A stretch of DNA of 64,000 nucleotides from Craspedostauros australis (Eukaryota; Bacillariophyta; Bacillariophyceae; Mastogloiales; Achnanthaceae), in assembly GCA_026770025.1 (NCBI GenBank), contig JAMXDE010000038.1:310001-374000 (forward strand), read 5' to 3'. The notes under the pieces were generated by a model. That model was not told the DNA's origin. It did not search any database and worked only from the letters and a program-made list of their open reading frames with translations. How positions within the stretch are numbered: position 1 is the first letter of the stretch; each line of letters opens with the position of its first letter. Position numbers and translations under genes: made by a program. Positions 6,963-59,850 of the stretch are shown here, one piece after another.

Positions 6963-7894
6963 TGTTGGAAATCCGGGGTACCCCAGTCTCTAGTAGTAGT
7001 CTCTGGTTACCTATTCCTGTTATTGCATTGTTGGAACTGTGAGTACAACATGTTCATCACTTTCAATTCCATTTGCCAAAGCATACATATTCCACAGTAG
7101 CACACAGTCTTGCCCTTGCTCATGCAGTGCTGTCCTCCTGCTTCATCATGTCATGCAGCATGTACTCCATGTACATCTCATCTTGCAGTATTGGTTCATC
7201 TCATCATGCATCTCAGATATTCCATCTCCTGCCCTCTACCAATAGTTTCGTTAGCGTAGACATCGCCGAGTCGTAGGCATCACACAGATCGGTTCATTCG
7301 ATCAGATCGCGGTCTCCCATTCGTCACGGGAACACCTTGGTTGGGAGCTCATTCAGCTCCTCGACCATCTCACATCTCCGATCATTTCACATCTCCGATC
7401 GTCTCCTGTCAACTCCGATTGTTTCTGATTGTTTCTTCGCCGATCACTTCACCGGCTTCCTGGATGTTCCTCATCTCAGGTTCGTTCACAGGTTCGTTCC
7501 TAGGTTCGTTCCCAGGTTCGTTCCCAGTACTCTTATCTCATTGGTTGCGACGTGGGGGCCGTAGTCGCTCGTATCGTGATGTTGGTCACGATTCCAACAT
7601 CCCCGCCCCCTGCGACATACACGTGTGATTGGCATTCCTGCATTGAGGTCACGGACACCATAGTCCGGTTCGCATTCGGCACGTGGCGTTCTCCACCACA
7701 AGTTACGTGCAGCTCACATTTTTCTGTGTCACAATGATCAAACGTGGGAGTTGCGGTAATGTATCATTTCATGACATTCGACTCCTGACTCTTGGGTTAT
7801 TGGGAGGTGCGGTAGTGTAGCATTCCACGATGCTCAACTCCGCACTCTTGGGAGGTGCGGCAATTCGGTGTTTCACAACACCCGATTCCTGACA
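6963..7894 (-). repeat. LTR-A copy, inverse orientation
   Basis: Read on the plus strand it starts TGTTGGAAATCCGGGG and ends GATTCCTGACA, the reverse of the copy at 5811-6600. It is longer (932 bp), partly because the last 150 bp hold three tandem modules: a GGGAGGTGCGG-type block followed by a different short hairpin. It also has three tandem copies of a GGTTCGTTCC-like decamer near 7483-7527. The flanking bases (gaaacg and gggctg) do not form a target duplication. Confidence 0.75.
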
Positions 7895-8518
7895 GGGCTG
7901 GACAAGGTGGCTCGCGCGTATGTTCGCCACCATCAGATCGCCTACGCAATTTGTGCTGCGGAAGGACGTGACGAATTTGTGACGGAGCGCAAGGGACTGA
8001 GCATGAACGTGCGGAAACAAACGTTCACTGAAACTGACAAGCACGGCAACAAGATCGGCGTTACTGTGTCTCACACGGACTTCGCGTTGGAGGAGGACGA
8101 GGCAACCAACATGACCACCAAGAAGCCAACCGCAACAGGCAACAAAGGCAAATCAGCTGGCTTCAAGTACGCCAAGCCCAACATCAAAGGTATGTACGAT
8201 GATGCGCTCAAGGTGATGGCTGTCAGTCGACTGCAGTGCCTGAAAACGAACCTGCGAACAACCAGCAGCCTCATTCCGTTGCTGGAGAAGCAAATCGTTG
8301 TGACCACCAAAGCCAATGAGGAGGCTGAACAACAGAAGAAAGGCAAGAAGAAGAAGACGCCCAGCAAGAGCAAAGCCGAGATCATTGAGCCTCACAACAA
8401 CAACAACAGCAAGACCGAGGCAGCACCCACCATGAACACATTCGAAGTGGCCATGTTCGTTGGCAAGACCAAGCATAACAGCAAAGCAGAGCAGGACACC
8501 AACACAGCAGAGATGTAG
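7895..8518 (+). CDS. Hypothetical lysine-rich reading frame between LTRs
   Basis: The frame is open from inside the preceding LTR (7868) to a TAG at 8516-8518, giving about 208 codons after the LTR. It is hydrophilic, with a Lys-rich stretch (QQKKGKKKKTPSKSK) near residue 160-170 and no membrane segment. I do not recognise a family. Codon use looks gene-like (many AAG, AAC, GCC), but there is no clear start of its own. It could be a gag remnant of the flanking element family or a host gene fragment caught between insertions. The two flanking LTRs do not belong to it as a pair, because the right one has its own target duplication. Confidence 0.3.
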   Translation, partial: GLDKVARAYVRHHQIAYAICAAEGRDEFVTERKGLSMNVRKQTFTETDKHGNKIGVTVSHTDFALEEDEATNMTTKKPTATGNKGKSAGFKYAKPNIKGMYDDALKVMAVSRLQCLKTNLRTTSSLIPLLEKQIVVTTKANEEAEQQKKGKKKKTPSKSKAEIIEPHNNNNSKTEAAPTMNTFEVAMFVGKTKHNSKAEQDTNTAEM

Positions 8519-15800: not shown

Positions 15801-16190
15801 GGCTTGGAATCCGTCAAGCAGTTCGTAGAGGAGCTCCGCCTGCTCGACGTCCATCTCGGAAGTCTCCGTGAGGACCTCAACGTCTTCGAAACTCGCGAAT
15901 TCTCCCTCGACGGACTCATCTGTTTCGTCAGCGATGGTTGATCTGTCGCCGAGAGGGGTATTTGCTTGGTCAAGGAGGGAACTGTAGAAATCCATATCCT
16001 CGTCGGCAGGCACACCATTGGGTTCCGTGGTGGGCTCTTCGAGCAGCCCCTTGCTATCCATCAACGGAGCGATGTTGACCTTGCGCATAGCTGCGGCACG
16101 CGGGATGACAGGCCTTGCCATCTGAAATGCGGAGCTCGGGCATGCCCAGAGCAATCCGGCCGCGGCGGCAGAAATGATGTGTATTCTCAT
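12817..16190 (-). CDS. Lipoxygenase with predicted plastid targeting, four exons
   Basis: The product would insert dioxygen into polyunsaturated fatty acids, the first step of diatom oxylipin synthesis. My model joins 16190-15309, 15051-14323, 14015-13422 and 13167-12817 (851 residues); all introns have GT..AG ends, donors GTACGT or GTAAG(C/T), and phase 0. The N-terminus is a signal-like stretch ending SSAFQM, resembling the diatom ASAFAP plastid signal. Conserved blocks include NPVMIEVV (as in NPxxI), APMILFR and WLFAKTTVAAAD. The iron ligands are H541 and H546 (SHLGKTH), H726 and N730 (FHAAVNF), and the C-terminal Ile851 (NIPASIDI). The second intron cuts just before WVSHLGKTH. No PLAT domain was recognised in the N-terminal 290 residues, which contain hydrophobic and acidic stretches instead. 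Positional specificity cannot be read with confidence. Confidence 0.93.
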
Positions 16191-21284: not shown

Positions 21285-21659
21285 GTCGTGCATCTAACCT
21301 GTTGAGTCGATCGGGTCAAACGCTCTGATGGAAAAGCCTCCTTGATTGATGATTCGTGATGGATCTTGTCAGTTGTGACGGACTTTTTAGGAGGATTGTG
21401 CGTGTCTGGTTGCGGAAGCGTAATGCGCTTCACGTGAGAGTGGAGAAAGAAATAAGTCCCAACGAGATTCAAAACCTCCAATTGCCCGTCATTGTCTTGT
21501 GCAACGACTTCAGACAACGCTGCGCAGACTCGTGACGAGATCGAGGATAGTCGTACGTCCACAACATCGCGAAGAGGCAGACACAAAGACCACCAACTGA
21601 AACCGGAACTGGCACCGCAAAGTGGACCTCAGCAAGCCTAATCTGCAATTTCAATACTC

Positions 21660-24600
21660 ATGATGTCAACCCCAACGATGACAACAGTGCCCCCGATGGA
21701 CACACCCCGGTCCAACATGCTGCACAAGAACAGGACGAGCAGCACGAAGAGTCTCGACGATCCATCGACCAACATGTCAGACACAGACTCCCTCACCGAC
21801 AGCGGACTCTCCGATGCCCATCAACATGGTTATGCCTTCAACTTCGACCGCGCTGGAATCGTTGGGCGGGACAAGGAGAAGCGGGTGCTGTCCAATGCCA
21901 TCAATCAGATGCTCAACAGAAAGCGAGCCACCCAACGCACGCGAAGTCTGGATAGCACCAGCATCACCACCAGTAGCAGCAGTCAAAGCTTCACCTCCAA
22001 ACACAACAGTGAAGATGAGATGCATCACAAACAGCAACGTCGCGGGCAGCGCCATCGCACAAGTCTCAAGACAGTATGCTTCATCTCGGGACCATCAGGA
22101 AGCGGCAAGTCCGCACTCGCCATGCACTACAAGCAGCACTGCCTCGACAACTTCGCCTTCTTCATTTCTGGCAAGTTCGATCTTCAGCAGATGGAGGAAC
22201 CGTACGCGGGCATCAAGAACGCGATGGGCCAGCTGGTGGAGCAGATCATGGCATTGCCTCAGGAGGATACTCGTATGGCTGATGCGGCAGTGGATGATCC
22301 GCGAAGATTCTCGACATTGCACCAATCGTTGATTCGGCGTCTGTCGTCGAGGGAGCTCAAGACTCTGTACAAGATCATTCCAGGTCTACTTGAGATGATG
22401 GTCGGCGAGAGCACCAGCAATACAATTGCAGATCGACAGAACAAGGACCACGACCTCCAAGAAATTAGCGATGATGATGTCAGCACAAGTGCCGATGGAG
22501 ATGCGAGCACATCATTGAATGGCATTCGTGAGCAATCTCTGACCAAACAGTCATCGTTCACGAGTGCTTCCACCTCAGGATCGGCTGCTCATGGACTCGA
22601 TCCGTCCACTCAACTATCAACAGCCACAATCACAGAAGGATACAGAGCGAAGTCCGATCGAATCAAGCACACACTCAAGCGATTCCTTCGGATCGTCTGC
22701 AATCACAGCCCGCTGGTGATCATGATGGACGACATCCAATGGGCTGACAAGGCGTCGATTGACATCATGCAGACATGGGCGATGGATGGTGACATTTCAT
22801 CCCTGATGATCATCGGATGCTTCAGATCCAATGAGCTCGAGCAAAGCCAAGACCTTCAAGACATGATCACGGCTCTTCAAGAATGCAAACGAGAGAGATC
22901 CATCCGTGTCCTTGACATCCCGATCCAAGATCTACCGTTGCAGAGCGTCCGCCACCTTCTCATCGAGATCCTCCTGCCCAACAACGACAGCGACGTGAAC
23001 GGTCTTGCTGACATTGTGCACCGCAAGACTGGAGGCAACATCTTCTTCATGAAGCAGTTCTTTGAGTCGTTGGTGTACAAGAAGCTGCTGTCCGTGGACG
23101 AGGACGGCGGGATGAAGTGGATCTGGGACGAGCAGAAGATCGTGGCTGGGTCATCCGCCATGGCCAATATGGTTGATCTGATGAAGCGGAAGCTGGATCG
23201 TCTGGACGCTGCTCGTCACGTGCTGCCGATCGCGGCATGCCTTGGATCTACATTCTCGAACCGCAGGCTGATCCTTGCGATCCGGACACTGTCCATCCAC
23301 TCCGACCACAGAGTGTTCTTCAAGGATCTGTTGACGTCAGATGAGAATGCTGCGCTGATGCCATCTTCGCAGTCATCGGATGCATCTCAGAGATCGGATG
23401 GATCACAACGGCCGCATGGTGCTTCATCCCTCCGTCAATCGGAGCGGTCACAAGAGCTGCAACGGCAACAAGCGCACCTCATCTCGTACGAAGGTATTCA
23501 ACGAAGTCTGGATGTCTGTGAGAGAGAAGGCCTCATCGAGCAACATCTACATCGCAGCTCTCAACGCCGAAAGTCTGGAACAAAGGATACGGGCATCGGT
23601 ACTCAGCAACAGCCCACGAACAACGCCAACGGAAAGCAAGGGTATCGATACACCTTCATCCACGATCAAGTCCAGGAAGCTGCGCTGTCGCTCGTTCCTC
23701 AAGACAAGCTCTCCGAGCTGCGACACAGAGTTGGTGATGTCCTGCTCACCTCATACTCAAAAGGTGAGATGCGAGAGGACAAGGTCCACATGATCGCTGG
23801 CCTCATCAATGCCAGACTCGATCTCGTACCCGCCACTGCTCAGCACTCCGATCGTCGCATGAGGATCGCCATGCTCAACTCCAAGGCAGGTCAGCTTGCT
23901 GTCGAATGCGCTGCATTCCAAGCTGCGGCGGAGTATTTCCGGACGGCAATAGAACTGTTGCCAGCTGATCATTGGAAGACCCATCTTCATCAGAGCATCG
24001 ACATCTTTTCATCGGCCGCCGAATGCGCGTACATCAATGCAAACATTGACGAGATGAAGCGGTACTGTTCGAGCGTGCTGTCATTGGATTGCTCCATCCT
24101 TGACAAGATCCGGGCGTACCGTATCTTCATCGATGGCTTGTTCGTCGAATCCAACGAAACCAGAACAAAGAAGACGATCCCAACAATCCTGTCTGTGTTA
24201 GGCCAACTTGGATGCAGGTTCCCCACAAGCAAACTCGGCAGGAACTTCAAGTTGATACGTGGTCTTCTCAAGATGAAACGAGTGGCATCGAGATGGACTG
24301 TGGAGTCCTTCCGAAGCAAGCCATTGTGTGCGGATCCAACACAAGTGGCTGTGATGGAGCTGCTGGACCAACTGGCTACCGTTGCATACTTCGTTCTTCC
24401 GGAATTGTTTCCTTTGGTCATCTTTGAGTGTGTGGAGAGGACTTTGAAACACGGCATCCTCCCACATTCCTCTACCGCCTTCGCTGGTCTCTCTGTGGTC
24501 ATGGGGCCTATCATGGGAGATTTCAAAACCGCGGAAACGATTGGCAAGATCGCCATGCAGATGACAGAACACGAATCAAACCGAAATTGCGAGAGTAAGG

Positions 24601-25550
24601 TCATTTACGCTTTAAACACTGCCGTGATACATTGGATAACGCCGATGGACGTTGCGTTGCAGGAACTGTGGAGAGGGCACGAGCTCGGCATGGCATGTGG
24701 TGATGTCAACACAGCCTTTCGAAATGTTTCCAGTCACCTACTAAACAGGTTCTTCGCGGGTGAACCGCTGGCCCAACTTGACGAAGACATGCTGAGGTGT
24801 TTACATTCTATTAATGATGTGCCGCACATCGAGCAACAAGACTTCCTCAACATGAGTTGGCAGTCCATTCACAATCTTCGAGGTCTTTCCAACAGCGAAA
24901 CGAAGCTGAAGGGAGACATGTATGATGAAGATGCCTTCTTCGGACAGCCAACTGAACAGATAGACGAGGTCATCGCAATCGTTGCGATGTCGTACCAGCT
25001 GATCCTTGCCATATTCTTTGGCGACTTCGAGCTCGGCGCGACCATTTCGATAGAATCCTTCCACAAGCAGGTGAAGAAGATCCCAGGAGTTGCCTTCCTT
25101 CCAATCGGAGCAACGTACGGCAGCATCTGCTGTTATGCCGCTGGCTACACAGTCTCGAGCAAATCGAAAGCAGCCACATACCGCAAGCAAGGAGACCGCT
25201 GCCGCAAGCAGCTCCGCAAGTGGGCCGAGATGGGCAACCCAAACTGCCAACATAGCTACGCGTTGGTGCAAGCAGAACACAAGATGCTGCGATCCAAGTT
25301 CGGCTCCGCCGTCGTGAATTTCAAGGATGCGATCGATCTCGCCACGAGCTGCGGCTTCACGAACGATCAAGCGCTGGCGAATGAGCGCCTTTCGGAGTGC
25401 TTGACAAGGATGGGGATGGACGATGCGGCCGACCAGGCAATGGAAGAAGCCATTCGGCTGTATGGAGAATGGGGTGCAATGAGGAAGGTGGAGAAACTGA
25501 GATCGATGCACGAGAAGACGAAGAGAGAACAGGCGAGCGACATGAATTGA
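21660..25550 (+). CDS. Large AAA_16-type predicted ATPase with helical repeat tail
   Basis: This single-exon frame encodes 1296 residues. A Ser/Thr-rich N-terminus leads to an ATPase module: IVGRDKE, then Walker A GPSGSGKS at 144-151, then FFISGKFDLQQ and PYAGI, then Walker B LVIMMDDIQWAD with D357/D358. This is the signature of the ATPase half of bacterial trifunctional Ser/Thr kinase-ATPase-histidine kinase proteins (HstK-like), in which FISGKFDQ and DDLQWAD recur. After about residue 560 the chain is mostly helical and resembles the TPR-like region that follows in those proteins. Neither a protein kinase domain before it nor GAF or histidine kinase domains after it is present. Low-complexity Ser/Gln/Arg inserts occur at about 250-310 and 560-660. 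The function is presumably signalling, but no substrate can be inferred. Two ATGs stand in tandem at the start. Confidence 0.82.
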   Translation: MMSTPTMTTVPPMDTPRSNMLHKNRTSSTKSLDDPSTNMSDTDSLTDSGLSDAHQHGYAFNFDRAGIVGRDKEKRVLSNAINQMLNRKRATQRTRSLDSTSITTSSSSQSFTSKHNSEDEMHHKQQRRGQRHRTSLKTVCFISGPSGSGKSALAMHYKQHCLDNFAFFISGKFDLQQMEEPYAGIKNAMGQLVEQIMALPQEDTRMADAAVDDPRRFSTLHQSLIRRLSSRELKTLYKIIPGLLEMMVGESTSNTIADRQNKDHDLQEISDDDVSTSADGDASTSLNGIREQSLTKQSSFTSASTSGSAAHGLDPSTQLSTATITEGYRAKSDRIKHTLKRFLRIVCNHSPLVIMMDDIQWADKASIDIMQTWAMDGDISSLMIIGCFRSNELEQSQDLQDMITALQECKRERSIRVLDIPIQDLPLQSVRHLLIEILLPNNDSDVNGLADIVHRKTGGNIFFMKQFFESLVYKKLLSVDEDGGMKWIWDEQKIVAGSSAMANMVDLMKRKLDRLDAARHVLPIAACLGSTFSNRRLILAIRTLSIHSDHRVFFKDLLTSDENAALMPSSQSSDASQRSDGSQRPHGASSLRQSERSQELQRQQAHLISYEGIQRSLDVCEREGLIEQHLHRSSQRRKSGTKDTGIGTQQQPTNNANGKQGYRYTFIHDQVQEAALSLVPQDKLSELRHRVGDVLLTSYSKGEMREDKVHMIAGLINARLDLVPATAQHSDRRMRIAMLNSKAGQLAVECAAFQAAAEYFRTAIELLPADHWKTHLHQSIDIFSSAAECAYINANIDEMKRYCSSVLSLDCSILDKIRAYRIFIDGLFVESNETRTKKTIPTILSVLGQLGCRFPTSKLGRNFKLIRGLLKMKRVASRWTVESFRSKPLCADPTQVAVMELLDQLATVAYFVLPELFPLVIFECVERTLKHGILPHSSTAFAGLSVVMGPIMGDFKTAETIGKIAMQMTEHESNRNCESKVIYALNTAVIHWITPMDVALQELWRGHELGMACGDVNTAFRNVSSHLLNRFFAGEPLAQLDEDMLRCLHSINDVPHIEQQDFLNMSWQSIHNLRGLSNSETKLKGDMYDEDAFFGQPTEQIDEVIAIVAMSYQLILAIFFGDFELGATISIESFHKQVKKIPGVAFLPIGATYGSICCYAAGYTVSSKSKAATYRKQGDRCRKQLRKWAEMGNPNCQHSYALVQAEHKMLRSKFGSAVVNFKDAIDLATSCGFTNDQALANERLSECLTRMGMDDAADQAMEEAIRLYGEWGAMRKVEKLRSMHEKTKREQASDMN

Positions 25551-28563: not shown

Positions 28564-30861
28564 CTATTTGATGTCGCAGGAACAGACCAGTGACTTGGTC
28601 GATGGTCTGTACATGTTGTACACTCCTGATGCATGTTGGTGTGCATATCCGATGAACACCATCTCTTCTCCTCTATTCTTGAGCTTGGCAGAGATCCCGC
28701 CATAGGTGGTCTTCACAACAACCACCTCTCCGAATGTTCGAAGTGAATCGGTGTATGGTGGATTGCTGTCAAAGAATTGGCAATGGCAGTGGCAGTGCTT
28801 GCAGCTGCTGCCCACAGGCCATGCCTCTATTTGTTGTTGAGTTGTGCTCCGTTGAGCATGGAGCGGACCTTGGTGTAGAGATACGCAAACTTGTGTTCTA
28901 CTCTACCATTCCGCTGTGGCGTGTTGGACGCCATGAACTCGAATTTCGCATTCAGTCCTGCATCGATGAGAGTATCCTGCGTGGATTTGTTCTCTCCGCT
29001 GTTATCGCCTTGGAAAATGATTTGTTGATCACCTGTGTGTGACTTGATCGTCTGCACGAATCGTTTGATGTACCCTGGTTGGTCACTCTTGTTCTTCAGA
29101 AAGAAGCTCCAGCAGTAGTCCGTGAAGCTGTCCACGATCAAGGTCCAGTAGCATTTATCTCCGAAGCCTATGTGTTTAGTGTAACTGATATTGATGAAGA
29201 GGCGTTCGCCACGGCGAGTCGCTCTTGGGATTCTAGTCTTTGAGATGTTCTTCACTCTCGCATTCGCGACAGCACAGTCGCGACACACCAGCATCTCGCC
29301 GATGATCTTCCATCCGTATTGAGCGGCTGTCTGCTTCATGGTCTCGAGCGGTGCGTGACGGAGCATTCGATGCAAGTTCACCGCGCTCACCTCCTTGGAT
29401 GGGCTCTTGATGATGGCTGTGGAAGCCTTGTCATCCTCAGTTGGCATGATGGGATGCATCTGCACTCCTGTGATGAATCCGTTGGATGTTGGGAAGATGC
29501 GATCGAAGATGATCTTCTTCCCAGCTCTGTTGACGATGTCCATCAGAATGCCATTGTTTCCAATCTGGTAACTGTTGTATAGTGCCTTGTTTGTAGAGAA
29601 AAGGTTCACCACCATCTTGGGTGCGTACTTCACATTATTGAGCTGGATAATGTGGCAAGTGTTGTCATGTTGCTTGACCTTCAAGCGGATGGATCCGATC
29701 TTGGGAGAGTCCAGCTTCGTGCTGTCTCCCACTTGGACGAAGGACTTGATGTGCCGCACGTTGAAGAGGCCGGCGTCTGAGTTCACGATGTGACACAAGG
29801 CTCCGCTGTCGGCAAGCCAGGTATTCTCGTTGACCTTGTCCTTGTATTTGGTGCTCAGCTCGTGAAGCTGTTCCATGGCAGCTGCTGCCATGTCGTCGTT
29901 GTGATCTTCTTCGTTCCTGTCGTCCATCCTGTGGTAGTCCATGCCGTCGTAGTACGGTTCTCTGACTGCTGGAGTCATGTCTTCTTGGTGAGTTCCTGTC
30001 ACCGAATCGTATGGCGTGACTTGTGGTCGCTCGCGCAGGAGTACCTGCATACATCCCCCAAGGACGTAGTGCAATTCCGTCTCTGGAATGAGCTCGTCTT
30101 TCCTCCAACAGCCGGTTGAGCATCACTGTGTTGGCGAGAATCTCTTCGATTGATCGGAAATTGTCGGACAGTATGGTGCCAATCACGCGCACCCATACGT
30201 GTTGCAGTCCCCCGTTGGTCATCCCTGGGAAGCGACGCATGCCTGCTACCATCACGGCGTCGTGGATGAGCTGTCGTTGCATTGTCTCTACTGTCAATGT
30301 AGGATATGGGATCGTATCATGCCTGTGTATGGTGTCGAAGCCTCTGGCGTTCTGGACTGGTGGGAACGAGATGTCTGTTGGATAGATGACTCTCTTGTTT
30401 GGATTGAATCTGTCCACTTCTTGTTCTGATTCATTGCTGCTGTCTTTGTGGAAGATACCCATTCTGTTGTTCCTTGCCACTGGAGGAGGCAGCGCCTCAC
30501 CGCCGTTTGTCTTGTCGCCAGAGACGTCTTCGTTGTCTTGATCCGCGCTGTTCTCGTTGGTGTCGGCATCGTCTGCGTTCGCAGCCGCTTCCAACTCGAT
30601 GGCGATGGTCTCTGCTCCCATCTCAGCTGCGTCGCCGGACAGATCAATGATGTCGTTCACATTGAAGCAGTACTTGTAGCTGACTTCGCGACGTCGGTCG
30701 ACTTCATGGATGATTGGCTCGTCGCTGAGCCACGCTGGCACGACCTCGTTGTCGTGTACTTCGTCATCGTTTTCGAAGTGTTGGAAGTGATCAAAGAATG
30801 AATCCTTGATGTCGTCGGATACCTCCAAGCAGAGCATCATGTCCAGTATAGAGAGCATCAT
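28564..30861 (-). pseudogene. Copia protease-integrase region with frameshifts
   Basis: Three overlapping frames (30861-29665, 30074-28827, 28815-28564) together encode an acidic spacer, the protease motif LADSGALCH, a GAG-pre-integrase zinc segment (LRHAPLETMKQTAAQYGW, then CRDC) and an integrase core with FQGDNSGEN and ASNTPQRNGRVEHKF. The final frame holds the integrase C-terminal piece GYAHQHASGVYNMY. Frames overlap out of register, so at least two frameshifts have occurred. Confidence 0.75.
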
Positions 30862-35217: not shown

Positions 35218-38200
35218 TCATTTGGATGGGCTGCCATCACCTCGCAGCTTGCGACGGGACGTCTTGAACGTTTGCCCCATGTCGTACAACGGAGCACCGG
35301 CACGTTCCCGGTTCGGCATGCAGTAGTCGAGGTCCTCCTTGCCCTCCACGCCCATCCATTCAGCGACACCGTTCATCATGGACTCGTAGCTCAGGTGAGG
35401 AATCAACCGACCTCGGCCGATGTTGTACGGGCCACCGAGGGTCATGTCCTCGGGGTACTTGCCAAGAATCTGCCCTCCCTTCACATCTCCGCCCATGGTG
35501 AAGTAGTTACCGCCCCACGCATGGTCGGATCCTTCCCCAGAGTTGGCGGTGAGGGTGCGAGCGAACTCAGACGTGAGCACCACGGTAACCTGATCCCACA
35601 TCCCCTGCGCCTTCATCTCCTTCTGGAACGTATCCAGGGCGGCGTTCAGGCTTTGGAACTCGTTCGCCTGCTGTGTTTTCAGCTGAGAATGATGATCCCA
35701 CGATCCCAGCTTCATGAAGAAGAGATCGCGGTCCGCCCCGCGACCTTCATGAGTCAAGATGAAGTTCGACACCGTCTCGAACTTGGTGCGGTAGTCGAAG
35801 TTTTGGATCGTGCTGAAGTCCTGAGTCAGCGGGACGTTACTGACGGTGTTCTTCAGGGTTTCGATATCACTGATGGCCTTGTGCAAGCCACCTGACCACA
35901 GCTCCCCGAACACGCTGCTGTGGACACCGGTCTGCTGGTTCATTCGAGCCACATGATCTTTCGCATCGAACACTTCGCCCTTCGGGCGCGGATTGAACTC
36001 TTGCATCCCCTCCGCGGATACGATCAGCGCTTCGACGGCCTGTCCAGGAACGCCGACGGTCGCCACGCTCGCATCCTGGATGGTGATTGGTTGCGGTTTG
36101 TAGCCCTTGGTGGCAAGCACGTCGCTCACTCGTCCCAGAATGCCAGTGGTCGGGGTCTTGTCCCAGGGATCGACGCGCTGAGTCTCTAGCTGCATCGTGT
36201 TGTGCGCAAATAGGTCGGTGTTGGAGAGTCGGTCGTAGTTCTCGGTCGTGACGGGCGTGTCCAACACCCCCATGTTGGCGAAGAAGGCCAAGTCGCCGCT
36301 CTTGTACAAGGATTCTACGACCGGGAGCTCTGGATGGATGGCGAATTCGGAGCATGGCTGCCCGCTGGCTTGGATGATGCGAGTGCGCTCTCCTTCTGTC
36401 AATGCGATCGTTGTTCGCTCCGAGTTGTACTGATCCAGCACCGTCAACCCGTTCCTGTTGCGCTGGGTGCACGTGTGCGGAGCGAGCATGTTGTACGAGT
36501 CCATGCCACCATCCAGCAGCACGTGCACGACTGCCTTGTAGCCCCTTGGCGATGGGGAAACCGGTGGCTGTGGCGGTCGGTCCGTGCCGGTGGTGCGCAC
36601 CAAGTTGGTGGCATGGAACTCCGGTGCTGTCACGATGAGCTGCAGGCCCTTCTCCATGGCCTTGGTTGGATTGGACTCGGCTGCCATGATCTGCTTCACG
36701 TAGTCTCTCTTGCTCATCGTAAGTCGGCCAGACGTCAGCAGCGTGGCAAGCTCGTCGATGGTCGCGTCGAGGTTGGACGTGCTGCCCGGCTCGTAGGTGA
36801 GGAAGCCGAAGCTGCTGTCAGAAACGTCACCCCAATTCACATTCTCTGGACACCAGTCAACGCGGGGACCGTACCCGCCGTAGCATTGGGTCAGGCCGTA
36901 TCGGATGAGGGAGTACATTCCGTTCATGCCGGTCACCTGGCGAGGGGGCGTCACGAGCTGGGCTTCAGGAGCGACGAGGTTGCCCCGCATGATCCGCCCA
37001 GATGGTTGGAACTCTGGCAGGAAGAACGAGAAGACGCTGCGGATCTCGTGCGCCATCTGACCAAGGCGGCTGCCGAAGAATTCATTCAGCTTCAGCAGGC
37101 CCTTGTCCACCCTTTGCTCGTAGTCCAGCGAGCGCAGGATTCCAGTCACCTTCAGCAGTGGCTCCTTCAATGCTCCATATGCTGGGTCAGCATCCAGAAT
37201 CACATCGCGGCTTTCTGGTGACAACAGGACCGCAGCAACAGCAGCGCCAAGATCACCGTAGCTTCCACTTCCGAAGGTTTTGGTGCCTCCAGCGCCGTTG
37301 TATGCGAACTGGCCGCTCTTGAAGGCGGTGGCGATGCTCTTGATGTAGTATGGCGATGGGTTGGAATTGCCGAACCGTTGCGCGAATCGCACTGCGAGGA
37401 ACGGCGCCGTGTTGGGGTGGTACATGTAATGATCAAGGACCGCGTCTGTTTCGTGATGTGCGTCACGGGGCTCCTCGTCCGACAGGCTGATGAAATGCGG
37501 CGGGTTGCGGAATGAAAGGTCCGCCCCGACCAACGAGACGGTCGATACCACGTTCTTGCGCAGCTGAGTCATGCCGTATTCGTCCACGATCTCGAAGACC
37601 GTGTCAGCGGAGAGTGGTTGGCCAGCTGGTGATGCCTCGAATCCGCCAATGTGCAGTGCCTGCAGGATGGCCTGATCAGAAGGCGAATCGTTGCCAGTGA
37701 ACACGGCTTCGTTGGAAACGGTCACCTCGCACACGCACATGTTATCCTCACTGACGATGCAGCCAGTTGTCGATGCGCAGTTGTTCACGACCGATTTGAA
37801 ATCATCCGACCAGTCCACGCGGAAGAGCGTTTTCGTGCTGGGTGACACGATGAGCTCAACCTGATCATCGCCATAGGATGGCGCGTGAACGATGCCGACC
37901 TTGCCATCTCCGCTGATCTTCGCCTTGAGAGTGCACGATTCGGATGTCCAGAAGTGATTTGGATCCCAGCACTTCGTGTATGTTGCTGAAGTATCCTGAC
38001 CTTCGCAATCGGGACGTGGCCATTCACTGCACAGTTGCTCGTCGCAGGCATCCAATGCTGTGGAGAACTTGGTGCGCTCGCCCCAGTACGCGTCGCCGTA
38101 GAAGTTGTTGGTTGGGTTCGTCTTGCAGCACGCGATGATCGCAGACTCGGTCCTGGGATCGGCGCACATGTATTCACCCCATTCCCAGTGTCGGATGATG

Positions 38201-39325
38201 GTCTTCGCGTTCTCGTAAAACGATTGGTGCACGCAAGGCTTGCGGATGTACTCGTAGTACATGCCGGCTGATACCTCCACGGTTCGCACGGTGTCGATGC
38301 GGCATTCCTCGCCAGAGCATTGAATTGGTTGATCCAGCACGATCTTGGTTTTGTAGTCACAGGATCCGTCTCCTCGAGGATTGCACAGCTTTGTGTAGAG
38401 TCCGCTGTTGCTTGCGTCGAGCTTGAACCGTTGCGCCGATGGATCTGTCTTCCATGCGTCGATGTCCGAGTGCAACTCTGGGTGTGGGTTGGGTCCAAGG
38501 AATCGGTAGACCGCACCTGGCTGGAGGAAGTGATCATCCGGGAGGTCGGCACACAGAGGGTATCCGTCACCGACGTACTTGCGGTTGAGTCCCATCTTGG
38601 GGAAGCGATCACGCCATTCCTCTCGGATGTACATGGGGTCGATGTAGTTTCTCCAGAGGTTTTCTGCATTTCCGCGGACTTGCTGTTGCTCGAATCCAGT
38701 CCACGCCCTTGCATATTCCTCTGCGTGTTGTTGGGTAAGAAAGGAAGGGAGGATGGGTGGATAGAAGGGAGAGGGAAGCAATCATAGTACGTACAGTAAC
38801 CAATTCATCATCATGGGGTTGCGTCGTGGCGCAGTGGTCATTGGTTGAGAGTAAATGGAGTACCATACAGGCAAAGTGAGTCGATGGGTTGGCAAGAGCA
38901 GATCAGGACGTCCATGAGCAGAGCAGCGCAGAGCACACCATCGCTACCGGTGCCAGTATCCACATCATGGCGTTTCCAGGTGAAGTCATCTCCATCGGTA
39001 TCGTAGCCTCGTCTCACTCACCGATGTCCTCATTCGTGTACACGCGCTTGGGGTTGCCAGCTTCGTCCAGGATCTTTGTGCCGTCCATGTTGAGTTGGAA
39101 CAAGCCGGTCGTGAAGAGCTGCATCACCTCACGGGCGAAGTTTTCATCGGCGTATTCCACCACTCCGTCGCGCTGATACACGAATGCAGTTGATTGACTG
39201 TTGTAGTATGTGAGCATGTTGGCCATCAAGGGGTTGTACGAGACTTCCTTGAGCACGTCACGGTAGTTCCCAAATGCATGACGGACCTGTTGCGTGTTGG
39301 TGTGAAAGTGGAGAGAGATAGCACC

Positions 39326-39368
<43 letters not shown>

Positions 39369-42300
39369 GTTGAAATGAGAACAGGGTTAGATACATGGGT
39401 GGGTTGAATGAAGGATTGATTCATCACCGTGACCAATGATAGCATCGACGAGAGCATCAGTAGAGGAATCAAAGTCGAGACAGATGTGCTGCGTGATCGT
39501 GAATAGATTCACGCAGATAACATGGAACCCCACCATGGAATGTATTGTACTTACGAAGGTATCGTAGTAAACCAGGAATGGTTCGGTGGAGAGGTCTGCA
39601 TCAGCACCGTCGGGAGTGATGACGAGGATCTGCGACAATGCCCACGCCATGCGTTGGCGGAGCTGATCCACTTCATTCTCGACTGTGGCCTTGAGCCATA
39701 CATATTTGTTCTGGTGCTCGAACAGCTCGTAAGATGTGGCGAAGCGACGAGTGTAGGCATCGAATGAACCTCGGTTGATCCAGCCTCCGTTTGTGACACT
39801 GCCTCCGTTGGTTGGATCGTTGGCCACTTCGTATGGGCTTCCGCACACGACCGTTCCGACACCTGACAGCGAACCGTATCCCTGTGTGAGTTCCGGATCG
39901 CCTGGTTCCAGCAAGGTGACGCCGAAGATCTTCGCCATTTCTTCATTGCGCATCTCGCGTGGCAACTGGTAGAAGTTGACCTCATCACCCAATCGCCACG
40001 GACCGCCAAAGCCGCCCTTCTTGTTGTTCCAGCGAGACATTTCATGCCACCCGGGAAAGTTGAGACGAGCGCTGCCCTGTTTGGCAAATGCGGCAATGGG
40101 TGTTGGGCCGCCGTTATGCCCGCCGTTGACCCATTCGGTGAAGTCGTACACGTTCAGGTGATCTTGGTGCACATTCTTCCAGCAGTCACCGTCGTCGTCT
40201 TGGACCATGAAATCGATGGCAGTATCACGCTGTCCGTCTGGGCATTGTCGATCATCGTCCCACAGCCAAACATCCATCATGTAAGGATTCATGTCGTTCT
40301 GCTCGCTCAACCACGCTTTGGTGTTGGATATCAGGGCGGAGAACATGGTTGCGACACCAGCGTTGACAGCTCCCAATTCAGCGCTGTTGCACGTGACTGG
40401 GATCCAGCGGGAACGAGAGTACTGGTCGCATGGCTTTGGGTCGGTCAGCTTCTGTCGTGCTTGGTCGAGTCCCTGGACAGCATACCAGTATCGCGTGGTT
40501 GCGGAACTATCATCCTCGGTGCCTCCGGTCTCCTTGTACAGTTTGCGGATGAGATCTTCGGTCAGTGTGAAGTAGCCGGTCTCAACATCGGGTGCGCGGT
40601 TCACCCAGCCCATCAGCGGTGAGCAAGCGGAGGGTGATGTCGAGACGTAGCAGTTGTCTTCGTTCAGGAAGGTTCGTGGGGTGTTGGCGCAGTGCGCTGT
40701 CTCGTACGGATCGAGGAGGTCGGCATGATCTGCGAAGACCTGGCCACCGCCATCTGGGAGGACATTCTCGAGCGTGTTGTCCAACAACTTGAAGCGTGGA
40801 TCATGGATCAGCATGTCGTCGCCTGTTTGATGCGATGTTGTTGTTGTTGGTGGTGGTGTTGTTGGTGGTGGTAGTAGTAGTTGTGTGATGATTTGGTTGC
40901 GAAGGTTCATGTTTCAGCACAATCAAGCAGCGGCAAGTGCGTAAAGAGGAGAAACAGAAGCAGCAGGGACATTGGAATGGTGAGATAGGGTGATGGTGGG
41001 GGACATGTCTGTAGGCTTGGGGCACCTCTGTTGACGTACCGTGTTGGACAAAGACAGGCACATTCGGTTCAAAGGTTGCTGTGTTGCATTGCGAGTCTGC
41101 CATGCTGTTCGCGAGGATGTAGTGTCGCAACGGGAGGTATTCGTCATAGTCCAAATAGTATTGCTGGTCGATGGGCTTCAGAATCTGCGATGAGGTGGGA
41201 ACGTTCAGCACGATGCTGTCGCTTGATGCGAGGATGGCGTCCTTGGCCGCGCTGGTGACGAACGGATTCACCAAGAACGCTTCCTCCCATTGGAAGGCCG
41301 GGAGTGCCGGGTCCTTGAAGATCATTCTGTGACACTCCGTCCTGTCCGCGTTTTCAACGTAGATGGATCCGTCGACCCAGCAGATAGTGTACAAACCATC
41401 CTGATCCCACCGTGTGGTGGGAACATATGCTTCGCTGTCGGAGTCGTGCGCATAGTCGTAGTCGTACATGGTGAAGTCAACGATGGTGTAAAGTCTTGCA
41501 ACACCATTGCGGACCTTGGAAATGGCGCGCAGACGTTGCCCGTTTGATCCCGTGACGGTCTTGAGTTCGATGAAGGTCCCGATGTCCTTGTCGATGAAGA
41601 CCTCGTGGCGGTATCTGGTGCCAACTTCGCATGGTTGGGTGGTGCGACCGATGATGGTTGGGATCTCGAATTGCGCATTCAAAAACTGGCGGAACAAGGC
41701 GCGATGGGATTGGATTGGCGTTTTGGTTGTATCCTGCTGGTCTTCGATCCACTTGGCGAAGACATCGTTCAAGTCCGAGAATGACGATGCATCGTATTCC
41801 GCCTCCATCTGATCGAGGGCTGCGCTCGTCACACCGAATGTTGTTTGCTCCAAGAAGCGAGAGATGATGTCCCGGTCTGAGTACGCCGGCGCATCGAAGG
41901 TCTTGAGCTCGTAGGTGTGGCCCTCCTCTGGAGCTGGCAGTTGGGCCGTGCAAGCGCTTTCTCCGCATTGGTCGACTTGGACCGAGTTGGGAGATGATTC
42001 CATTGCTTCCGTGGAGCCGACCACTTTCCAAGGTTTGTTGTTGTAGGGTCGTGCAATTGGCTGGAAGGACGTCATGGATGAGGAGACACGGATGAGGGTG
42101 CACAAAGGAGTAGAATGCGTAATTCGGATGCTCCCAGGGCTGACTGCCACTGCGGGTTGCGATTCATCGCTGGGGCACGAATAGGTCTGTACCGCTGCCG
42201 CGTCACCAGAGTCGGTGGTGTTACTAGTATCTTCGCTCACGTCTGGTACTGGAGTTTCGGTTGCGGGAGAGATGGGGTCGTCCTCGTCCGATACCCCGTC

Positions 42301-42684
42301 GCGAAAGTCGACGCCGGAGGATGGTGAGTCGGTAGGCAGTGAATCGGTGCTATCGTCGTAGTAGATTGGGGTTTCTGGTTTGCCATCAGCATTGTTTCTT
42401 GGACTGACACCGCCATTGGTACTACTACCACCACTGCTGCTGCTATTGCTACTACTACGGCCACTTGTACGTCGGGTTGCCAAAATGGTTCCAGAGATGA
42501 CGACCGCGAGGACCAGTAGTGACACGGCCAGCCACACCCGCAGGCGGCGGGAGTTGCCCGGGCGATGGCTGCTGTTTCCTGAAGTATCGGCGGGATCGGT
42601 GCCTGGCGGTAGACGACCCACGACGGCGGAGACGCCATCGCCGTTTGGTGCCAGTTGATTCAAGCCAGGTGATGATGTGTGCAT
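35218..42684 (-). CDS. Membrane-anchored DUF1800-DUF1501 fusion protein, four exons
   Basis: I join 42684-41040, 40822-39555, 39286-39022 and 38720-35218 (2226 residues). All introns are GT..AG with consistent phases (1, 0, 1), and the last junction restores YTNEDIEEYARAWTGF, the DUF1800 pattern. A cytosolic N-terminus is followed by one membrane segment (about 49-70) and a Ser/Thr-rich linker. DUF1800 begins near residue 266 (DRDIISRFLEQTTFG) and includes FAREVMQLFTTGLF; its C-terminal part has NTAPFLAVRFAQRF. DUF1501 occupies about 1784-2215: VVHVLLDGGMDSYNM, then MKLGSWDHHSQ, then VTVVLTSEFART and DHAWGGNYFTMGGDVKGG. In bacteria the two families are often neighbouring genes for exported proteins; DUF1501 relates to the alkaline phosphatase/sulfatase fold. 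The activity is unknown. An in-frame ATG 25 codons upstream (42759) is an alternative start. Confidence 0.88.
39329..39367. repeat. (AG)n microsatellite in intron 2 of the DUF1800-DUF1501 gene
   Basis: About 19 uninterrupted AG units lie within the intron between 39555 and 39286, some 45 bases upstream of the acceptor as read on the minus strand (as CT, a long pyrimidine/purine alternation). Confidence 0.95.
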
Positions 42685-43247: not shown

Positions 43248-44777
43248 TTACCAGCCCTCCCGTTGGAGATGCGTGTCAAAACAGGCGTGGCCACAGCCCA
43301 AATCTCTCTCGTAACAGCTCTGTGCTGACTTGTCTGCCTGCAGAACGCCGTCGGAACTGCATGGAAAGTGGATCTCGGTCTCGCACAGCTCGTGGATGCG
43401 TTGCTTCAGTTCGCGATATTCCAGCAATCGCATTTCAAACTTGTGCCTCCCGATCGCATCGATTGTGCGGTCCAAGCTCGCATCGGCCACCGCATGCAGC
43501 AGGTAGTCACCGTAGTTCATGGCGCGCCACGTGTCGCCGGCAAGGAATGCCTGCACGGTCGTTGGCAATTCCTTCAACGGTGGTGGCGATTCCAACCGGA
43601 TGCAATGCTTCGGCTCTGCACCGACGGGCATGTACGAAGTGCCAGCGACCTTGGAGGAAGCCACAAGGATGTCTGCCAACGTGACTCCCATGCGCATCGA
43701 GAGCGCCACCAACGACTCGTCCATTCGTTCCACCACCAGGAGGAAATCGTAGTGTTGCATGATGCTCTCCACATTCTGTGTGACTGACAGGGACGAAAAG
43801 CGGTCTGCAACCTTGCCGTGGCTGTTTCTCTTGTCGCCATTGCCGTCGTCGTCGTTGATGAGCCGCAGTACTTGGGTTGGCGTTGTGCTGGAGTATGCCG
43901 AGTACTGCGGGATGCGCTGCAGTGTCAAATAGCTCAATTGAAAGCCACCGCGTCCGCTGGATCTTGCGTTTGCGCCATCTTGGATGCGCTCGTCCATGCC
44001 TTCCAGCTGTTGCAGGATGATCGTCGCGTTGTGCTTGTCTTCGTGCTGCTGCAATCGCGAGAAATGATACCACAGGAAGCTCAGTGCGCGCTGCCGCGGA
44101 TGGCGGATCGACGAAAAGAGGTACGATTCGGTCCCGTGGCGGTACTTGTATCTGCGCTCGGTGGGGAGCCCGTGTTCGTACAGCACCGGGATATCGCCGT
44201 ATCGTTTCGAGATGCGCAGTGCGACAGCCGCAGATGTGGTGGATGCTGTCTTCGGCACCTTGACGAGGATGATGCCACGCTTGTACGCATCCTGCACGGG
44301 GTTGCTGTAATGCGTGGCCCACGTCCCGTTGGAACGGTCCGACCATATCCTGACGAGCTCCTGCGCCTTGTTCTGAATGCATTCCTCCGATAGACAGATC
44401 GTGGAGTCGATAACGGCCTTCGTGGTCAGTATCGACGACGTTCGCGATGATGGCCGCGCTGGACGAGCGACAATCTCTCTTCCGTCTTGCACAGCCTGCG
44501 CTCTTGTATTGGTGTGCTTCGAATTGCCCCCATCCCTCTCATTGCCTATGCGTTGATCTTGGCTGGCCGTTGTGCGGACCTGCTGCTCAAGTTGCGATTG
44601 CTGCAGGGACGCTGTGTTGCTGAGCAGGAAGTAGATCGACAAGCACGCCGCGCAAAGAATGATAATCACACGCCGGTTGCTGATCCCATGCCACTGCCGA
44701 TCATCCAGCCGTTCGTGCATATGTTTATGTTCAGCCTGAGGTTGCTTCTGTTTCTGGTGCCGACGCTGCGCCGACAT
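43248..44777 (-). CDS. Type II membrane sulfotransferase-family protein
   Basis: This single-exon gene encodes 509 residues. A basic cytosolic tail precedes one membrane segment (about 37-54), then a stem region, then the catalytic domain, the layout of Golgi sulfotransferases. The 5'-phosphosulfate loop reads ILVKVPKTASTTSAA (about 168-180), and the 3'-phosphate binding segment reads SSIRHPRQRALSFLWYHF (about 215-232). Both match the PAPS-binding pattern (K-x-x-K-x-x-S/T and R-x-P-x-x-R-x-x-S-x-Y/F). The protein would transfer sulfate from PAPS to a carbohydrate, as in the galactose or heparan/chondroitin sulfotransferase group; the acceptor is not predictable. It is likely relevant to sulfated cell-surface polysaccharides, an inference from the family only. 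Confidence 0.82.
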   Translation of the reverse strand: MSAQRRHQKQKQPQAEHKHMHERLDDRQWHGISNRRVIIILCAACLSIYFLLSNTASLQQSQLEQQVRTTASQDQRIGNERDGGNSKHTNTRAQAVQDGREIVARPARPSSRTSSILTTKAVIDSTICLSEECIQNKAQELVRIWSDRSNGTWATHYSNPVQDAYKRGIILVKVPKTASTTSAAVALRISKRYGDIPVLYEHGLPTERRYKYRHGTESYLFSSIRHPRQRALSFLWYHFSRLQQHEDKHNATIILQQLEGMDERIQDGANARSSGRGGFQLSYLTLQRIPQYSAYSSTTPTQVLRLINDDDGNGDKRNSHGKVADRFSSLSVTQNVESIMQHYDFLLVVERMDESLVALSMRMGVTLADILVASSKVAGTSYMPVGAEPKHCIRLESPPPLKELPTTVQAFLAGDTWRAMNYGDYLLHAVADASLDRTIDAIGRHKFEMRLLEYRELKQRIHELCETEIHFPCSSDGVLQADKSAQSCYERDLGCGHACFDTHLQREGW

Positions 44778-45108
44778 GGCGAATAGCTAACGACGAAAGC
44801 AACAACGGATGACGAGCGATTGTGTATCCATGGCGGCCACGAATTGGTGTTCTGACGAACATGGGACGTCGAACGTGGAACGTGGAGCAACACGATCTTT
44901 GGTGGCCATGGTTCTGTACAACTGCTGGATTTTTGGCGCGAAGCGATTTTAGTCGAGTTAGTCGAAGATATGAATCGTTGGTTCTGAATTGCATCCATTT
45001 GAAGATCAACCATGTTGCCCACAACTCGTATTATTATGCAACCATGATAGAGCAATACACAACTCGATGAGGAGGAGATGAGCATGTTAGAAATCACCGT
45101 CTCTCCTT
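44778..45108. other. Intergenic region upstream of the sulfotransferase
   Basis: A short spacer between the sulfotransferase start and the 3' end of ureG. Nothing else is recognised. Confidence 0.4.
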
Positions 45109-56878: not shown

Positions 56879-59221
56879 CTATGACCCGTCCACCAACTCT
56901 CGTTCGCATTCCAACCCCGGCCGGATGCAGCCGAAGCAGCAGGAGCATGCCAGCGGTGGTTCCGCTCGACAATTCGCCGCCAACACGAACAGCGGACGCT
57001 GCACCTCGCACAAGACCTCGACGTCGGTGATCCTCGTGCGATCCAAAGTCACTTCTTTCAACTCCAGCAGCTGATTCAGCTGCGTCGGCACGGAACCCTC
57101 CAGGAATGGATTGCATCTCAGCTTTAGGATTTGCAACGACGTCAGGTTCCCGATTTCGGTCGGAATATTCTCGTTCAGGTAATTGTATGCGACGTTCAAT
57201 GTCTTCAACCCATGCAACAGCCCCAGCTCGGATGGTAGCGTGCCTCCTAACTGGTTGCGTTCCAACCGCAGCACTTCCAACATCTCCATTGCTGCCATTT
57301 CAGATGGAATGGCACCTGCCAGATCGTTGTGGATGATCGACATCGACTTCACTCGATCCGCACTCGTGCAGGTAAGCACCGGTTGGCCGTCGACGGGATC
57401 CACCGCCGTGCCGCCCCATTCGCAAATGTGGGTGTCGGGATTCAGGAACTGGTACTGCTGCTCCCAGAATGGCCCGCCCATTCCCATGTAGAACACCAGC
57501 ATGCTGTAGCGCTCGGCCACCAGGATGGGATCCGTGTCCAGCGTGATCCATCGATCGTTGTTGATCAGCCAAAGGCGTGCGTCGTGTTGGGGGAACAGAT
57601 CGAGTGGACCAGCAGTCACGTTCGTGGCGACCCCTGTGATGTACTGATCGATCAATTGTTGTTCCATCGATGTTGGTTCCACCGATGTCTGTTGCGTTGG
57701 CGCGGCGGTCGGAGCGAGAGTCGGTGATGTGCTGGGAGAGGCGGATTCATCTATGGTAGGCAAGTCCGTCGGCTCCGTCGTGGGCTGGGTGGAGGGAATC
57801 ATTGAGGGCGACGATGACGTATCTGATAGCAGCGTGCTCGTACCTCCTGTTGTCGCTGATGACGATGACGACGATTTGGATGCGAGCACGGCCCCAATCG
57901 TGGCAGCGGCTACAATCACGATGCACAGCGCCGCAACCAAAACCATCATTCGCATTCGCTTCGGATTGTCAGGACCGTCCGAGGCATCTGCAACCACTGC
58001 CTCCTTGAGCATTTGTTGCTTGGCGTCTTCCGCCGCCTCGACTCGAGCTTGCAATATCTCCTCTTCGTCGACTGCGACGTGGTCATTATCAACTGCATTG
58101 ACCGAGACAGCCGTGATCGTATTCGTTGTGTGCCTTGTCAGCGAGAGACTTGGAGGTGCGTTGATGTCACTGGCAATGCTAACCTGAGAATCAAGGCTGT
58201 TTCCAATCACCGTTCCGTCATCGGGAACCACCTGATCCGCGCGTTCGGCGTAGGCTCCACCGGCCATCTGATGGACACGGATGGCGCCTGGGCGTATCAC
58301 GTGGTTGTTGCGGTCTTGTGTGCGCGATAACTGCGTCGGCAGCGTAGCGTAGAAGCTGGACGTTGTCCTGCCCCCTTCCGACATTTGCGGAGCGCCGATC
58401 GGCTCTGGTTTGTGGCCAGCGAGTGCATTCGTAAACCCAGAGGCGTCAGTGGTTTGTCGACCAGCCAACGTAGTGGCTGTAGTCTGCATTTTCTTCTTAG
58501 ACCCTTCGGCTTGGGGTTCTGTTGCCATGCGGTTTCCGACCTTCTCTCCAGCCGACGCTCTCTCTGCAGCCGGGAGTTTCGCATGCATCGGAAGGTGAGA
58601 GCTCGCGTTTTCTTCGGCGGATTGATGATCGCCACGACGCGCAAATGTTTCCTTCTCCGTCTCGTACCCCGACCTCACGTTGCGACCCTGCTGTGGGTTG
58701 GTTACGATCTGCCCAGATGACATGAGCTCTTTCTCTCTGATCATCTCGGTCCTGCCATCCGCAAGAGCGACCGCGACTGCATCTGCCTGCCATCTCATCT
58801 TCTGTTCGCTGTCAACAGCGACCGTCTGCAAACCCGCGGTGCCACGCTGTTGCTCGCTTGTCAGTGCAGGAAAGGACCGGTACGCAGGCAATTCTCTTTC
58901 GTTCATCCCGTACGCAGGTGGCTTCTCATAAGCATCGCCTTCCAAACCAACCATCATGTCGTCGTCGGCGTTGCTTTGGCTGCCATCAATTCCGCTGTCG
59001 TTCAACAAGCTCATGATGAAGGCAGCCCTCCGCGCTTCTTCCGCCTTGGCCTGTTGGTCGCGGTCCAGCTGCTCTTCGTCATCGTCATCGTCATTCCCCT
59101 CATCATCGTGATTGTTGCGCTGATGCTGTCGCCGTTGGTTCCGGTTGTTGTCGTGATCAGACATCGTGGATGCGGGCGCAGCTGTCCAAATGTGTCTTTC
59201 TTCTTCGCGTCTTCTGTCCAC
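56879..59221 (-). CDS. Leucine-rich-repeat transmembrane protein, paralogue 1
   Basis: The single-exon gene encodes 780 residues (an alternative ATG at 59163 would give 761). A long, polar cytosolic part precedes a membrane segment at about 426-450 (MMVLVAALCIVIVAAATIGAVLA) and a Ser/Thr/Pro linker. The extracellular domain starts with an LRR-cap-like segment (RYSMLVFYMGMGGPFW, then HICEWGG) and has about five plant-type LRRs (LEVLRLERNQLGGTLPSELG, then IPTEIGNLTSL). It ends with a Cys-rich tail. This matches the abundant diatom LRR-membrane family, in which the short N-terminal region is cytosolic and no kinase is present. Ligand and function are unknown. The gene next to it is a paralogue. 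Confidence 0.85.
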   Translation of the reverse strand: MDRRREEERHIWTAAPASTMSDHDNNRNQRRQHQRNNHDDEGNDDDDDEEQLDRDQQAKAEEARRAAFIMSLLNDSGIDGSQSNADDDMMVGLEGDAYEKPPAYGMNERELPAYRSFPALTSEQQRGTAGLQTVAVDSEQKMRWQADAVAVALADGRTEMIREKELMSSGQIVTNPQQGRNVRSGYETEKETFARRGDHQSAEENASSHLPMHAKLPAAERASAGEKVGNRMATEPQAEGSKKKMQTTATTLAGRQTTDASGFTNALAGHKPEPIGAPQMSEGGRTTSSFYATLPTQLSRTQDRNNHVIRPGAIRVHQMAGGAYAERADQVVPDDGTVIGNSLDSQVSIASDINAPPSLSLTRHTTNTITAVSVNAVDNDHVAVDEEEILQARVEAAEDAKQQMLKEAVVADASDGPDNPKRMRMMVLVAALCIVIVAAATIGAVLASKSSSSSSATTGGTSTLLSDTSSSPSMIPSTQPTTEPTDLPTIDESASPSTSPTLAPTAAPTQQTSVEPTSMEQQLIDQYITGVATNVTAGPLDLFPQHDARLWLINNDRWITLDTDPILVAERYSMLVFYMGMGGPFWEQQYQFLNPDTHICEWGGTAVDPVDGQPVLTCTSADRVKSMSIIHNDLAGAIPSEMAAMEMLEVLRLERNQLGGTLPSELGLLHGLKTLNVAYNYLNENIPTEIGNLTSLQILKLRCNPFLEGSVPTQLNQLLELKEVTLDRTRITDVEVLCEVQRPLFVLAANCRAEPPLACSCCFGCIRPGLECERELVDGS

Positions 59222-59850
59222 TGTTGTCGCTGCTGTCGCTCGTGTCGTTGTTGCAGGTATGGTCTCGGCCGAATGAGGTCCTGGATTATAATACGAGTGG
59301 TACCTCGCGGCGGCTTTGAACCGGTTAGCAGAAACAATCAGCCATCTAGCAGATCAACCAGTTGGGTTGGATGATGGATGGATGTTGTGGTTGTTTGTGT
59401 GCCTGCAAGGTTGGATGACTGTTCGGTGGTCATCACGGGGTCGCTGGGCAAAATCGAGGAGAAGGGTCTGCGAACACTCGCAAAAACGCACAAGAAACGT
59501 TGTGACAAAATAGACACTTTCCCCGAAGCTCTCGAGAAAATGTATCCACCGTCTGCTGGCAGACACCTTTTATTCCGCATTCTTGTGGCGCTCTTCGCTT
59601 CATCGTAAATGGTTGACCGCATGCCTATCGACACGCTGCGAACATAAAATAATATAATATTCTAGAATATTCTAGAATATAATAGTTAGCTTCGAAATAG
59701 CGGTAATGATGTATTATATGATACTGCCGGCGATGCTACGGCGTCTCTTCGTTTGTACGCAACACATTCGTATCCGTCTGTGGATGGATGGCCGAACCTT
59801 TGTGAGATTGCGAATTTACGCAAAGAGGGGCCCGGACGACATTCCGTGAG
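59222..59850. other. Intergenic region between the LRR paralogues
   Basis: It holds the upstream region of paralogue 1 and the 3' side of paralogue 2. A short AT-rich near-palindrome (attctagaatattctagaat) lies at about 59660-59680, possibly part of a 3' processing or promoter region. Confidence 0.4.

Follow-up and report, generated by a model that had tools for sequence, protein, structure and literature searches.

A diatom gene family that joins the bacterial neighbours DUF1800 and DUF1501 in a single protein

We analysed a window of 64,000 nucleotides from the genome of the diatom Craspedostauros australis (contig JAMXDE010000038.1, positions 310,001 to 374,000) and found on its minus strand, with a coding span of 35218-42684, a gene that fuses two protein families, DUF1800 and DUF1501. 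The gene has four exons, all features given below being on the minus strand, and its 2,226 codons end in a single terminal stop. Exon 1 (41040..42684) encodes a putative cytosolic tail, a membrane segment, a Ser/Thr-rich stalk, the N-terminal piece of DUF1800 and the start of a first insert. The joined reading frame runs on through exons 2 (39555..40822) and 3 (39022..39286), and exon 4 (35218..38720) contains the end of the middle piece of DUF1800, a second insert, the last DUF1800 piece, a linker and DUF1501. The three introns (40823..41039, 217 nt; 39287..39554, 268 nt; 38721..39021, 301 nt) are all GT-AG introns, with splice phases of 1, 0 and 1 after exons 1, 2 and 3 respectively. Two near copies of the gene, L023 and L024, break at the same places as the window gene, at residues 549, 972 and 1060.

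An earlier note on this DNA had proposed four exons with consistent phases, and the sequence confirms the fusion as part of one four-exon gene. The fusion is independent of any intron call because exon 4 alone joins both domains: it lies within a stop-to-stop frame of 1,187 residues and covers residues 1060-2226, which comprise the C-terminal part of DUF1800 and the complete DUF1501. The paralogue L017 likewise carries the counterpart of window residues 503-2222 in a single frame, inside a stop-free open frame of 1,871 residues. Neither the window gene nor L023 and L024 contain internal stops. Compared with these two copies, the totals of insertions and deletions in exons are multiples of three (57 and 75, or 57 and 54, in exon 1; none in exons 2 and 3; 3 in exon 4), while the pooled intron totals of 53 and 29 are not. 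The ratio of nonsynonymous to synonymous divergence (dN/dS) between the window gene and L023 and L024 is 0.44 and 0.47 over 2,206 codons.

Two Pfam families are found in the joined protein at an expectation value (E) of 1 or less, DUF1800 (PF08811) with 170.8 bits against a gathering cut-off of 26.1 and DUF1501 (PF07394) with 113.3 bits against 27. The whole of DUF1501 (35449..36540, residues 1787-2150) lies within exon 4. For DUF1800 the claim of a full domain holds as far as the completeness of the profile is concerned, with the qualification that two large inserts break the domain into three pieces, which correspond to positions 39-94, 111-308 and 308-566 of the 568-position profile built in this analysis. 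The first piece (41686..41883, residues 268-333) is weak when taken alone (8.5 bits) and is backed by a profile of the diatom N-terminal part that matches the bacterial locus L052 with an E value of 4e-11. The second piece (38560..39725, residues 915-1113) includes introns 2 and 3, and the third (36610..37467, residues 1478-1763) is followed by a Pro-rich linker of 23 residues (36541..36609, residues 1764-1786).

The first insert (39726..41685, residues 334-914, about 580 residues) includes intron 1. The second (37468..38559, residues 1114-1477) is 364 residues long, has 18 Cys and is common to the diatom paralogues, with an identity of 38-43 % in six distant ones. We found no relative of this second insert at E of 1 or less among 2,089 bacterial and IMG/VR open reading frames (ORFs). 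Three IMG/VR loci (L144, L145 and L147) also carry insertions nearby, which suggests that the site tolerates inserts.

Scanned over its full length for hydropathy, the protein shows one membrane-like segment (about residues 45-72), in agreement with what had been seen before; the next best window, at 1944, reaches only 1.3. We place the segment at 42478..42543 (about residues 48-69) and, given its Arg-rich N-terminal flank, read it as a type II signal anchor that would place the N-terminal end inside. The segment is kept in L023 and L024 even though residues 1-160 are overall just 43-46 % identical.

To place the gene in its genomic context, we searched the 74.8-Mb assembly (90 contigs) and found at least nine loci with both domains on six contigs (the window gene and L017-L024), all paralogue counts being lower bounds, plus a partial copy, L025, that holds part of DUF1501. 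The contig of the window gene (C36) also carries L023 (L132) at 174-183 kb, L024 (L133) at 190-198.5 kb and the partial copy at 411 kb. Synonymous divergence (dS) between the window gene and its near copies drops about 50-fold along the gene, starting at 0.87-0.97 over the first 160 codons and ending at 0.018 in DUF1501, as gene conversion in the 3' part would give. Intron positions differ among the paralogues, since L017 has no intron across window residues 503-2222 and five others break near residue 1091, and this variation agrees with the proposal that the family gained introns. Matches to L019 change frame inside DUF1501, and this copy may be damaged or have additional introns. By hydropathy, L017 starts with a membrane segment similar to that of the window gene and L018, L019, L020 and L021 start with signal-peptide-like stretches; nothing in the start of L022 exceeds the hydropathy threshold. 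The type II anchor that the earlier note had assigned to the protein consequently fits the window group and L017 and does not extend to the secreted-like starts of L018-L021. The family seems, from these predicted starts, to have both anchored and secreted forms.

We compared the diatom gene with a bacterial set consisting of the best 80 of 553 relatives obtained by scanning genome contigs with a DUF1800 alignment. In 72 of the 80 loci DUF1800 is followed on its strand by a DUF1501 ORF, within 600 nt in 71 and after 2,582 nt in L097. In seven of the eight loci without DUF1501 the sequence stops 0-24 nt beyond the DUF1800 ORF, leaving no room for a neighbour, and the remaining one (L058) has 3,479 nt left. 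Where there is room for a neighbour, DUF1501 thus follows DUF1800 in 72 of 73 loci, which bears out the statement that the two families are usually adjacent bacterial genes and backs the suggested functional coupling of the two domains. None of the 80 bacterial loci has both domains in one ORF, and the two ORFs share the same reading frame in 16 of the 71 close pairs. Both domains are also present in 23 of 25 IMG/VR loci, which overlap in part, again with none fused, and four annotated plasmids carry the pair in the same order.

Two side observations concern these neighbourhoods. One IMG/VR contig filed as viral (3300037882_003354, 322 kb) holds two DUF1800-DUF1501 pairs (L147, at 6001-7908, and L142); in one of them both proteins have large insertions, and the DUF1800 insertion lies near the site of the second diatom insert and is unrelated to it in sequence. 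A further gene is found near the pair in 17 of the 80 bacterial loci (for example L054, L061, L063, L071, L076 and L121), its representative having PA14, F5/F8 type C and secretion-tail domains. The 12 named loci with such a PA14-type neighbour are all from Bacteroidota.

The bacterial and diatom proteins differ at the junction of the two domains. Using a crude RR-x-hydrophobic pattern in the stop-to-stop frame as a test for a leader resembling those of the twin-arginine translocation (Tat) pathway, we found the pattern within the first 120 residues of 71 of 72 bacterial DUF1501 ORFs compared to 5 of 81 DUF1800 ORFs, and within the first 60 residues of 64 compared to 3. This leader is a targeting feature that lies outside the Pfam DUF1501 domain. 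No such pattern precedes DUF1501 in the window gene or in the eight paralogues covered there; all nine copies have instead a short linker followed directly by the Tyr-Lys/Arg-Ala-Val start of mature DUF1501, and the Pro-rich linker of the window gene occupies the place of the bacterial leader. Neighbouring PF08811 and PF07394 genes such as those of L052, a metagenome-assembled genome (MAG) of Opitutia, have the same two domains in the same order as the diatom gene, and L052 shares with the diatoms the stretch before DUF1800. The diatom version differs in being one gene rather than two, in the loss of the Tat-like leader, in its introns, in a predicted start of the type that targets the endoplasmic reticulum (ER) and in the two large inserts within DUF1800.

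To address the origin of the two domains we built a quick tree for DUF1501 (82 rows) and another for DUF1800 (81 rows), with the bacteria represented by the 72 loci having both ORFs. The diatom copies form one clade with a support of 100 in each tree. Both trees also have the same main split of the paralogues, with the window gene, L023, L024 and L017 (98 in DUF1501, 89 in DUF1800) on one side and L018-L022 (99 and 97) on the other. Separate trees of this kind, against bacterial pairs and other stramenopiles, had been suggested as a check on a common history. In the DUF1800 tree the diatoms group with L052 and L057, both Opitutia or Opitutales MAGs (97), and L052 is nearest (81). A joined alignment of 57 rows (five of the nine diatom copies and 52 of the 72 bacteria, after removal of 20 near-duplicate, long or odd rows) gives the same group a support of 99, and a careful joined tree of 36 hand-picked rows gives it 97/99; in the joined trees no other sampled bacterium is closer to the diatoms than L052. 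Two results weigh against this picture: without constraint, the DUF1501 tree puts L052 and L057 as sisters (98) in a mixed bacterial set apart from the diatoms, and in the 36-row tree the pairing of L052 alone with the diatoms is supported by just 83/47. Forcing the diatoms, L052 and L057 together in the DUF1501 tree is equally likely (difference 0.00, p of the approximately unbiased test 0.51), so that the DUF1501 data neither show nor contradict the grouping. Within this bacterial sampling, the trees support a common origin of both domains. The claim that a bacterial pair entered the lineage and fused is partly supported, by the single diatom clade, the shared split and the joined trees, and is weakened by the placement of L052 and L057 in the unconstrained DUF1501 tree. 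Opitutales as the donor is a lead, because the sampling was seeded from DUF1800 matches and consisted, outside this genome, of bacteria only.

One alternative is repeated acquisition or fusion of the domains, or the arrival of the fused gene ready-made from another eukaryote. The available part of PMC7563939 describes 10 DUF1800 genes in the coccolithophore Emiliania huxleyi, two of them in the calcification-induced set; like the diatom family these are eukaryotic and multi-copy, and the transfer may therefore predate the diatoms or be separate from them. Our sampling of this genome and bacteria, together with long diatom stem branches, leaves space for such a history, which we nevertheless consider unlikely given the single diatom clade, the paralogue split common to both domain trees, and the linker and leader loss common to the nine covered copies.

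As to function, the predicted model of DUF1501 has the core of the alkaline phosphatase superfamily fold, and we take DUF1501 to belong to the alkaline phosphatase clan in Pfam. In sequence alignments the candidate metal residues and those beside them do not vary among the diatom copies covered, nor in 60 of 60 bacterial rows. DUF1501 thereby resembles, by predicted fold and by its invariant Asp/His residues, members of the superfamily such as NPP, PafA and the choline and carrageenan sulfatases, and differs from them in lacking the sulfatase signature and an evident nucleophile of the usual kind. Several observations weigh against an active metallo-esterase. The Foldseek alignments are poor (root-mean-square deviation 9-17 A, template modelling score about 0.3-0.4), which leaves the fold match resting mainly on the VIA second look, and the structural alignments listed have 7-13 % identity. 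Profile comparison with three bacterial sulfatases gave no significant relation, solved structures gave no convincing match by sequence, and DUF1800 gave no fold match. The C/S-x-P-x-R sulfatase signature is present in 0 of 10 diatom rows; in a 61-row alignment, C-x-P-x-R occurs somewhere in one row and S-x-P-x-R in two. Directly before H1899, 56 of 60 bacterial rows have Ser, whereas 8 of 10 diatom copies, among them the window gene, have Ala. With this Ser replaced and the sulfatase signature missing, the usual nucleophile is not evident.

It is conceivable, then, that the fusion is real and that its DUF1501 half is a catalytically silent module binding metal or charged polysaccharide in a structural protein of the wall, the mucilage or a vesicle lumen. 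The Ala beside H1899, the missing signature and the two Cys-bearing inserts, the second without relatives in our search, would all suit such a protein. We regard this explanation as doubtful, since invariant candidate metal residues across diatoms and bacteria would be unusual for a dead enzyme and 4 of 60 bacterial rows, too, have Ala in place of this Ser.

We favour, with a probability of roughly 0.55, the explanation that one bacterial pair fused once to give a lumenal or cell-surface metallo-esterase with a DUF1800 partner. The diatom family would derive from a single bacterial DUF1800-DUF1501 pair, the fusion having preceded the duplication of the family. With the fusion, the second protein would have lost its Tat-like leader and both domains would have come to lie behind one ER-targeting start, probably the type II anchor in the window copy, so that the product may reside in the lumen of the secretory pathway or on the cell surface. 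The DUF1501 end would be a metal-dependent member of the alkaline phosphatase superfamily that hydrolyses a phosphate or sulfate ester, and the all-helical DUF1800 might be a permanent partner that assists folding, metal loading or presentation of the substrate. A bolder version, which we find rather unlikely as a whole, is that DUF1501 represents a new type of esterase with an alkaline phosphatase fold, carries an invariant His in its nucleophile region and works only together with DUF1800; diatoms would have captured the pair, welded it into one anchored enzyme, supplied it with two further Cys-bearing modules and raised its copy number so as to remodel a charged polymer in the wall or vesicle lumen.

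The pair could instead serve the export of chitin or another polysaccharide, acting with chitin synthase in bacterial operons and on chitin fibres in the diatom. In the available part of PMC5122149, bacterial chitin synthases are associated with DUF1501 and DUF1800 genes that were transferred along with them and lie as separate genes beside the synthase, and a twin-arginine motif on DUF1501 is noted. Ten matches in the present genome correspond to about nine chitin synthase genes. We judge this role quite improbable, because a tblastn search at E 1e-3 found no relative of the diatom chitin synthases in 86 bacterial loci of varying length (L046-L131) and because the chitin synthase contigs differ from those of the fusion genes. 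The chitin synthase matches (PF03142) are on C16, C56, C20, C44 and C17, with five of the genes clustered at C16:532-583 kb.

That the fusion is an artefact of a wrong gene model, contamination of the assembly or a decaying gene is very improbable: the gene model was read from genome sequence alone, L025 is partial and L019 changes frame, but the gene has introns, its family occupies nine loci on six contigs, and the window gene and its two near copies have no stops and differ by indel totals that are multiples of three in the exons only.

DUF1800 and DUF1501 proteins are widespread, mostly exported and almost unstudied, and are seldom named in the open-licence literature, in 4 and 10 papers respectively out of 5.39 million. 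The available part of PMC4452313 treats DUF1501 as uncharacterised and mentions signal peptides in DUF1501 gene clusters. No description of a DUF1800-DUF1501 fusion was found in the accessible portions of the open-licence literature on either family, and Pfam or InterPro possibly already list such architectures. A natural fusion implies that the two proteins probably function as a unit, and it yields a single polypeptide to express, which opens a neglected bacterial pair to testing. Diatom laboratory strains allow gene removal. The clean exchange of a Tat-like leader for a linker would also be a record of a bacterial operon becoming a eukaryotic protein.

An ORF (43248-44786) lies immediately upstream of the fused gene and on its strand. 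It has a hydrophobic stretch at the N-terminus and matches galactose-3-O-sulfotransferase below threshold; no relative of it was found in the fetched stretches around the paralogues. Elsewhere, the window contains a Copia-type retroelement ORF of 1,704 residues (625-5739, plus strand; RVT_2 and Pol_BBD), a second ORF with a Pol_BBD domain (28827-30122, minus), an AAA_16 ATPase ORF of 1,302 residues (21642-25550, plus), an ORF with a short lipoxygenase match (13897-15813, minus) and an ORF for a leucine-rich repeat (LRR) protein (56879-59353, minus).

In the wider genome, one light-harvesting protein matches the solved-structure chains FCPI-7 (E 1.7e-96) and Lhcr11 (E 2.8e-94), presumably both of the diatom Chaetoceros gracilis, without gaps over 168 residues, and two other light-harvesting proteins have no close match. 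Silicon transporters (SITs; PF03842) give 88 matches on many contigs (for example C2, C9, C24 and C61), 28 of them covering at least 480 of 513 positions without an internal stop. Compared to the 3-8 SIT genes per diatom genome studied in the available part of PMC10328945, these transporters look largely expanded here.

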